NCBI RefSeq assembly: GCF_000337535.1
Contig: NZ_AOIP01000031.1
Coordinates: 162,943-226,942, forward strand
Origin: Natrialba aegyptia DSM 13077
Lineage (GTDB): Archaea > Halobacteriota > Halobacteria > Halobacteriales > Natrialbaceae
Direction of reading: 5' to 3'
Length of the DNA stretch: 64,000 bases
Shown: positions 50,660-64,000 of the stretch, piece by piece
Layout of the letters: each line of letters opens with the position of its first letter
How positions within the stretch are numbered: position 1 is the first letter of the stretch
Program-made: the position numbers and the translations under genes
Notes under the pieces: generated by a model
What the model saw: the letters and a program-made list of their open reading frames with translations, nothing else
Databases searched by the model: none
What the model was told of the DNA's origin: nothing

Positions 50660-50896
50660 TTACCCTCCGCCCGTGTCGGCGTCCGTATTCGTTGGCGCAT
50701 CCCCGGTGTCGCCAGCCGAGGCAACGGCCGGGTCGACGAGCACGACTTCCGGCGGCGCGCGACAGCCGCAGGGAGCGGCAACTGCCGTCGTCGGACCGAG
50801 GATCGTCACGGTCACGACCGCCTGGCCGCAGAGCGGACAGTCGGGCAACGAGGGACCGGTCGGTTCGTCGATCGACTTCGGGTTCTCATCCCTCAT
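50660..50896 (-). CDS. CPxCG zinc-finger protein, module copy A
   Basis: A 78-residue protein with Cys20-Cys23 (CPLCG) and Cys43-Cys45 (CGC), spaced as C-x2-C-x19-C-x-C. The core VTVTILGPTTAVAAPCGCRAPP is shared with the protein at 63499-63792, including exact Cys spacing; the tails differ. Both genes lie head to head with a conserved RNA-like element. Function unknown; the fold is a small zinc ribbon. Confidence 0.78.
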   Translation of the reverse strand: MRDENPKSIDEPTGPSLPDCPLCGQAVVTVTILGPTTAVAAPCGCRAPPEVVLVDPAVASAGDTGDAPTNTDADTGGG

Positions 50897-50981
50897 CGTC
50901 GCCTCCGGCGGGCAGTCGCGATGGTGACTGTCTCCGTGAGCGATGGCGATGAGACTCGAAGCGAGCGATACGTCGGTCGTG

Positions 50982-50999
50982 CGGGATGTTTATGTCCCG
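50982..50999 (+). promoter_or_regulatory. Palindromic box A promoter, copy A
   Basis: CGGGA and TCCCG bracket TTTAT (50989-50993), giving an inverted repeat around a haloarchaeal box A. The first T of the box lies 28 bases upstream of a conserved ATGG, the same spacing as at 63869-63886. Confidence 0.6.
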
Positions 51000-51013
51000 G
51001 TAGAATGAATCCG

Positions 51014-51118
51014 AACATGGCTGCAAACCCTCCACGGGGTTTGGAAGCCACGTCTCGGGTGTGTCCGCACCCGGGGCATTTTGCGTCTGCCCGTTGTGGC
51101 TTCCGTTCTAATCGTTGA
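51014..51118 (+). ncRNA. Candidate structured RNA, copy A
   Basis: The predicted transcript begins near 51017. GGAAGCCAC (51043-51051) pairs with GTGGCTTCC (51096-51104) as a 9-bp closing helix. Inside are CGGGTG/CACCCG (51056-51061 with 51068-51073) and GGGCA/TGCCC (51074-51078 with 51088-51092). A 5' hairpin AAACCC/GGGTTT lies at 51025-51042. The 3' tail is GTTCTAATC. Compared with copy B, substitutions keep the helices, and a 4-base indel breaks any shared 5' reading frame. I know of no named RNA of this shape. Confidence 0.55.
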
Positions 51119-51298
51119 TGTGTGGTGTCTTATATCTACTGTTACTTGACGCGAACGGAGGGGTGAGTACCGGCGTTCTTGCGGGATGCTGCTGCGACGT
51201 GCCGTGTCCTCACTGGTGCGAAACGAAGCAGTAACCGGACGGTCTCGGACACCGGTACCAAACCGATGAGTCAGTCAAAATAGCGTTCGCAGCGGCCG

Positions 51299-63498: not shown

Positions 63499-63792
63499 TT
63501 ACGCCTCGTCGGATCGGTCGGGTACGGGCGGCGCAACGCGACACCCACACGGCCCCGCAACCGCGTCCGTCGGCCCGATCATCGTCGTTCGCGTGATCGG
63601 CTCCCCGCATCGCGGGCACGTTCTGAACTCGTGGTCGGTCTCGCGATCGGGATTTTCGTGTGCGTCACCGGGGTGTTCGTGCGTTTCGCCCGGATTCTTG
63701 TGTGCGTTACCGGGGTTCTCGTGTGCGTCGGTCCGGGTTTCGGTCGGTTCGGTATCCGGTTCGCCGACTCCGTCGTCGTCACTCCGGGTCAT
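63499..63792 (-). CDS. CPxCG zinc-finger protein, module copy B, with His-rich heptad repeats
   Basis: A 97-residue paralogue of the protein at 50660-50896. Cys59-Cys62 (CPRCG) and Cys82-Cys84 (CGC) keep the C-x2-C-x19-C-x-C spacing, and GPTDAVAGPCGCR matches the core of copy A. Residues 22-49 are four heptads of the type DAHENPG/NAHKNPG, adding a His-rich N-terminus absent from copy A. The gene faces a second copy of the RNA-like element. Confidence 0.78.
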   Translation of the reverse strand: MTRSDDDGVGEPDTEPTETRTDAHENPGNAHKNPGETHEHPGDAHENPDRETDHEFRTCPRCGEPITRTTMIGPTDAVAGPCGCRVAPPVPDRSDEA

Positions 63793-63868
63793 TCCTGATA
63801 CCTCGTGACTCCGCCGAATTCGGACGGTAGAGACGGCAGTACGCGGACGATTCGACTCGTCAATCGTG

Positions 63869-63886
63869 CGGGATGTTTATATCCCG
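63869..63886 (+). promoter_or_regulatory. Palindromic box A promoter, copy B
   Basis: CGGGAT and ATCCCG bracket GTTTAT, nearly identical to 50982-50999. The box lies 28 bases before the conserved ATGG. Confidence 0.6.
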
Positions 63887-63900
63887 TGAGAATGTACGCA

Positions 63901-64000
63901 AACATGGCTTCAAACCGCACGGGTTGGAAGCCACGCCTTGGGTGTTGGTGCACCCGGGGCACTTTCGTACCCCACGTTGTGGCTTCCGTTCTAATTGGTA
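63901..64000 (+). ncRNA. Candidate structured RNA, copy B (may run past the window)
   Basis: GGAAGCCAC (63926-63934) pairs with GTGGCTTCC (63979-63987). The inner helix GGGTG/CACCC is at 63940-63944 with 63951-63955, and GGGG/CCCC at 63956-63959 with 63970-63973. The 5' hairpin is AACC/GGTT (63913-63925). The body between the 9-bp strands aligns with copy A without gaps and keeps the GTTCTAAT tail. The downstream end lies beyond the window. Confidence 0.55.

Follow-up and report, generated by a model that had tools for sequence, protein, structure and literature searches.

A candidate two-state translational leader switch in front of small zinc-finger genes of haloarchaea

The leader among described archaeal systems

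Haloarchaea serve as models of translation that does without Shine-Dalgarno sequences. Among natural archaeal riboswitches, the excerpted text of PMC8241225 (2021) names only the Thermococcus fluoride riboswitch as experimentally determined. It also presents synthetic theophylline riboswitches of Haloferax volcanii, in which a leader hairpin that masks the Shine-Dalgarno sequence and the AUG controls translation; natural haloarchaeal counterparts are not described in that excerpt. Overlapping ORFs are reported to be strictly coupled in haloarchaea, as were 9/9 tested H. volcanii gene pairs, with ATGA-type overlap (excerpts of PMC6728339). The C(P)XCG zinc-finger micro-proteins of Haloferax volcanii are very small and carry paired Cys motifs (excerpts of PMC11241148 and PMC6562870), and the haloarchaeal CRISPR-derived modules termed HRAMP are described without a regulatory RNA in the excerpted text of PMC8730458.

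Here we analyze an element from a window of 64,000 nucleotides, the whole stretch studied, of Natrialba aegyptia DSM 13077, and consider it probable that the element forms a structured 5' leader on a minus-strand mRNA and works as a two-state translational switch. Like translational riboswitches such as that for fluoride in T. kodakarensis (PMC8241225, in excerpt), it places a conserved domain of several helices directly before a start codon and has a strand that would either close this domain or mask the AUG. It differs from them in its many dispersed copies per genome, in its restriction to haloarchaea in the samples searched, in the dummy ORF that one family places between switch and gene, and in having no Rfam match: the whole window gave 0 matches at the Rfam 15 gathering threshold, and the element alone gave best matches at chance level (E 3.6 and 4.7). 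The theophylline riboswitches are engineered and unrelated to it in sequence. It shares the ATGA-type overlap with the H. volcanii pairs, but the upstream ORF here shows no sign of peptide selection and lies under a structured leader. The proteins behind it resemble the C(P)XCG micro-proteins in size and paired Cys motifs, but their family, multi-copy in Natrialbaceae, has the motif C-x2-C-x19-C-x-C ending in PCGC and no NCBIfam or Pfam family. Five such proteins gave nothing above cut-off in Pfam (best E 0.029, Lar, 15 of 28.6 bits) or NCBIfam (best E 0.043), and a search for sequence relatives in the PDB gave chance-level matches only (best E 0.016). A literature search of open-access papers found no published description of the element. 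Its predicted parts and the associated genes in the window are as follows.

51126..51141, minus strand: predicted promoter box, TATA-like, minus-strand CAGTAGATATAAGACA; conserved in the alignments, as is its distance from alpha
51096..51104, minus strand: alpha strand of P1, GGAAGCCAC
51074..51092, minus strand: P3 hairpin, GGGCA / TGCCC; the short forms among the other copies have a GAAA loop
51056..51073, minus strand: P2 hairpin, CGGGTG / CACCCG, with a hypervariable loop
51043..51051, minus strand: beta strand, GTGGCTTCC, partner of alpha (in P1) or of gamma
51025..51042, minus strand: P0, apical stem of the beta-gamma hairpin, AAACCC / GGGTTT
51016..51024, minus strand: gamma strand ending in the start codon, GCAGCCATG; AUG at 51018-51016
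50893..51018, minus strand: short upstream ORF of 41 codons, whose TGA overlaps the next ATG (ATGA)
50660..50896, minus strand: zinc-finger protein of 78 aa, CPLCGQAVVTVTILGPTTAVAAPCGC, below Pfam and NCBIfam cut-offs
50982..50999, plus strand: palindrome with a TATA-like core, CGGGATGTTTATGTCCCG, within the short ORF
63903..63987, minus strand: copy B leader, with alpha at 63987-63979, beta at 63934-63926 and start codon at 63905-63903
63789..63905, minus strand: copy B short upstream ORF of 38 codons
63499..63792, minus strand: copy B zinc-finger protein of 97 aa

The distance from the TATA-like box to alpha is 29 nt in 60/62 leaders, and transcription would start at about 51106-51109; the promoter of copy B falls past the end of the window.

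A conserved RNA fold and its strand

The preliminary description had contrasted copies A and B and favored RNA structure over a plus-strand protein. Its 9-bp helix, GGAAGCCAC/GTGGCTTCC, is indeed identical in copy A (51043-51104) and copy B (63926-63987), and the pattern they share matches twice in the window against no match in 100 shuffles. The 5' hairpin pairs in both copies as had been noted, and the 4-base indel is recovered as a distance from the ATG to GAAGCC of 27 nt in A and 23 nt in B. The letters given for the start of the inner helix, C-G in A and U-G in B, are likewise correct, but this change is pairable on the plus strand only, as it amounts to C-A on the minus strand. Homologues added here covary strongly without a common plus-strand frame, which upholds the choice of RNA over protein: frames 0, 1 and 2 all occur among the 19 copies of the genome, which refutes the proposed plus-strand protein, and the plus-strand ATG is absent from one of these copies. 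On this comparative evidence, the element is an RNA and not a protein.

Support for the fold comes from three alignments. In that of the genome's own copies (A2, 15 of the 19, with long-insert or decayed copies excluded and copy B entered once, as locus L014), pairing within the four-helix structure reaches 90.7%, and 19 cells show double changes; none of 500 shuffles scored as high. In the MAFFT alignment of 62 non-redundant leaders below 86% identity (A4), 93.5% of the P1/P2/P3 cells are paired, with 42 double changes against 14 when shuffled (0/500 shuffles as high); the RNAalifold covariation term is small on A4. A set of distant leaders was drawn from 34 sources, namely 15/21 loci outside the home family, Natrialbaceae, and 19/36 HRAMP-like loci, the ones with a full-length match and E no higher than 0.05. 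The 33 that matched show 114 double changes in P1/P2/P3 against 29 when shuffled (0/500), in an alignment that was itself fitted to the model. Predicted folding of copy A gives a z of -3.23 on the minus strand and -2.01 on the plus strand, and P3 of the short minus-strand forms closes a GAAA tetraloop.

With respect to the strand, the P1/P2/P3 cells of the 62 leaders, in minus-strand letters, comprise 1080 Watson-Crick, 74 G-U and 14 A-C pairs, and this excess of G-U over A-C means that the wobble pairs favor the minus strand. A count of P1 wobbles without alignment is neutral (44 vs 42), and earlier counts made without a fixed register were mixed and are superseded by the aligned one. The signals seen only on the plus strand are the U-G of copy B and an invariant U-G when P2 is extended outward. 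The plus-strand ATG is one half of a CATG, the other half of which is a minus-strand start codon, and in several families the AUG of a minus-strand gene marks the end of the structure. At five loci from other families, a strong stem is directly followed by the start codon of the zinc-finger gene. Of 108 located units, orthologues and duplicates included, 87 have a divergent gene for a small Cys4 protein next to the element. Most likely, the element is read from the minus strand; the plus strand and the role implied for it by the preliminary description are most likely wrong, in view of the wobble pairs, the CATG and the AUG of the minus-strand genes.

The start codon, its predicted alternative pairing and the genes behind it

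From 135 located matches, we derived 81 unique units with a CATG and an ATG-started zinc-finger frame, the zinc-finger ATG being chosen independently. The first stop in the frame of the gamma AUG lies -3 to +20 nt from the zinc-finger ATG in 75/81 of these units, and in 47 of those 75 the overlap of stop and start is ATGA; the other two frames overlap the zinc-finger start in 3/81 and 0/81, and the short ORF and the zinc-finger ORF are never in the same frame. Sequence comparison demonstrates the coupling of the ORFs and the location of the element at start codons, beside the conserved fold and the strand preference. Selection on the peptide of the short ORF was considered and rejected: its three codon positions change equally (90/99/95), and beyond codon 14 there are 50 synonymous against 166 non-synonymous codons. 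As the peptide beyond codon 14 shows no sign of coding selection, only the frame and length of the short ORF seem to matter. Codons 1-14 are nearly frozen at the DNA level and include rare codons. The short ORF also holds a near-invariant palindrome around GTTTATA, with linked changes of GGGA/UCCC to GAGA/UCUC, and this plus-strand palindrome may be an antisense promoter or an mRNA hairpin.

We infer a switch with an on and an off direction, a trigger and regulation as such. Pairing of alpha with beta would form the P1-P2-P3 three-way junction, leaving the AUG at the leader's end free and translation on; with P1 absent, beta would pair with gamma, masking the AUG and turning translation off. 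In Natrialbaceae-type genomes, the AUG would open the short, largely sequence-free ORF, and the zinc-finger gene would then be reached through termination-reinitiation at the overlapping stop and start, while elsewhere the leader AUG would mostly open a protein gene directly. In the 62-leader alignment, pairing of beta with gamma reaches 85.6%, with double changes in 7 cells, and a register slid by -3 scores higher on the covariation measure (0.122 vs 0.061). Among the distant leaders, a beta-gamma helix of at least 6 bp is found in 25/33, against 12% with gamma shuffled, and it is built from several unrelated sequences (GGCUUC/GAAGCC, GGGUUC/GAACCC, GGUCUU/AAGACC). These distant leaders with their differing sequences provide stronger evidence for the switch than the modest covariation within the family. 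In predicted folding of the full leader, P1 exceeds 0.5 in 48/62 and beta-gamma in 11/62, and with alpha removed beta-gamma exceeds 0.5 in 56/62. Since P1 usually wins in the full leader, the off state would need a trigger or co-transcriptional folding.

In the home family, units that lack the main zinc finger mostly have a different small protein, coupled likewise, of either the CYRC...CCPDC or the DGLHEAL family; 4/16 such units (copies at L027, L044, L049 and L108) show no coupled ORF. The CYRC...CCPDC proteins constitute a second unannotated small Cys4 family behind the leader (L059, L060, L062, L025, L107). Outside the home family, the leader AUG usually opens a gene directly; among the 21 such loci, L190 opens a 7-codon frame and L181, where a PadR is coupled, a doubtful GTG frame. 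One genome, G208, has ten leaders (L179, L186-L194), nine of which stand before a Cys protein of 44-45 aa; this is coupled to a larger protein (about 175 aa) that has further Cys pairs and belongs to no known family. In other families, the small zinc-finger motif also occurs in longer proteins that start like PadR winged-helix regulators (L149, L154).

In four genomes of two families, the leader is followed by a Cys-finger protein and then by a RAMP-like protein, and such operons resemble HRAMP (excerpt of PMC8730458). The regions upstream of 36 RAMP-like loci gave 21 full-length leader matches at E up to 0.16, the rest being partial, and 21/21 full-length matches end exactly on the AUG of the Cys-finger (zinc-finger) ORF. 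HRAMP-like operons that begin with the leader occur in several haloarchaeal families (L184, L176, L180, L185, L203-L222, L233-L238), and a more divergent class of RAMP-like loci (L223-L232) gave no full-length match. These leaders were found by covariance model, nearly all being missed by a loose three-strand search. The RAMP assignment comes from weak profile matches of one protein (PF03787 at E 0.0018, PADLOC Csm3 at E 0.00044), the second of the two proteins searched having no PF03787 or PADLOC match; the HRAMP name is applied to these operons tentatively, after the HRAMP paper named above. HRAMP as the partner of the RNA was rejected on the ground that the window's genome has 19 leaders yet lacks an HRAMP RAMP gene.

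Distribution, competing readings and significance

The window's genome holds 19 copies by DNA search (E 9.4e-9 or better, one split into two pieces), as it does with a later model (E 6e-12 or better), and they sit between differing genes; a search for a recurrent neighboring gene family beside the copies, other than the small proteins, found none. Model R1 gives 1-26 copies per genome in 34/61 sampled genomes of the home family. A minus-strand model, R2, detects the leader in 54/242 sampled Halobacteria genomes and in 26/73 genera, with 44/61 genomes positive in the home family and 10 outside it; its leader counts per genome are to be taken as "at least". In a sample of the phylum, 10/294 genomes have matches, all 10 within the window's order. 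Within the samples searched, the leader is restricted to haloarchaea. A phage or plasmid origin was rejected, as a search of phages gave no match and the plasmid matches (16 records) cover only part of the distribution. At L017 (3107-5075), the segment between two leader copies varies among sister genomes and in this case contains a TnpB-like ORF; of the two copies, the second has lost its start codon.

The leader may instead be an autoregulatory site to which the small zinc-finger protein encoded downstream binds, as in ribosomal-protein leaders. This would account for its position, nearly always before small Cys-rich, zinc-finger-like proteins, and for the zinc finger being present in 42/42 R1-positive genomes of the home-family sample against 4/19 R1-negative ones. 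However, the same leader precedes unrelated proteins (CPxC...PCGC, CYRC...CCPDC, the 45-aa CARC protein, the HRAMP-type finger and a DGLHEAL protein that has no Cys pairs), which makes a single protein family hard to sustain as the ligand; we regard autoregulation as rather unlikely. Another reading reverses the strand, with a free small RNA made from the TATA-like palindrome (50982-50999), starting at the CATG and acting in trans or antisense to the leader. The almost invariant GTTTATA core about 25 nt before the CATG, the DNA-level freezing of the first 14 codons of the short ORF with rare codons among them, the many dispersed copies and the folding of the plus strand too are all consistent with such an RNA. 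It is nevertheless improbable, given that the wobble pairs favor the minus strand, that the zinc-finger ORF starts directly at the element outside the home family, where no plus-strand TATA was seen by eye, and that the coupling of the ORFs would be left unexplained. Moreover, the P2 loop, which would be the natural guide, changes even among orthologues (identity 83%, vs 94% for the leader), on which ground a free small RNA with a guide loop was rejected.

That the copies are a mobile MITE-like repeat with hairpins serving transposition appears very improbable. The dispersal of up to 26 copies per genome and the TnpB-like gene between two copies in L017 are in its favor, but two sister genomes have most copies at the same sites, and for copy A synteny extends to a more distant, divergent species. 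Further, the copies are 71-85% identical, with compensatory changes among their differences, and coupled genes belong to the unit. Precise ends were not seen, and the breakpoints near some copies lie at no fixed end, rather than giving the variable sites and clean ends of a MITE.

We accordingly retain the reading of the element as a translational leader switch. By comparative evidence, it has the conserved, covarying structure in a 5' leader that marks a riboswitch; riboswitch classes are, however, defined by ligand binding, and for this reason we class it with translational leader switches, not with the riboswitches. More tentatively, it could be a candidate for a native haloarchaeal riboswitch class, in which one signal, possibly zinc, stress or infection, would set the translation of many small zinc-finger proteins and of HRAMP-like operons at once, the leader being kept while the zinc-binding gene is exchanged. 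A leader that is widespread, occurs in many copies and has its start-codon mask built in would make haloarchaeal translational control directly testable. It also points to a common signal for dozens of zinc-finger proteins that lack annotation, and would offer a regulatory handle on the HRAMP-like, CRISPR-derived operons.
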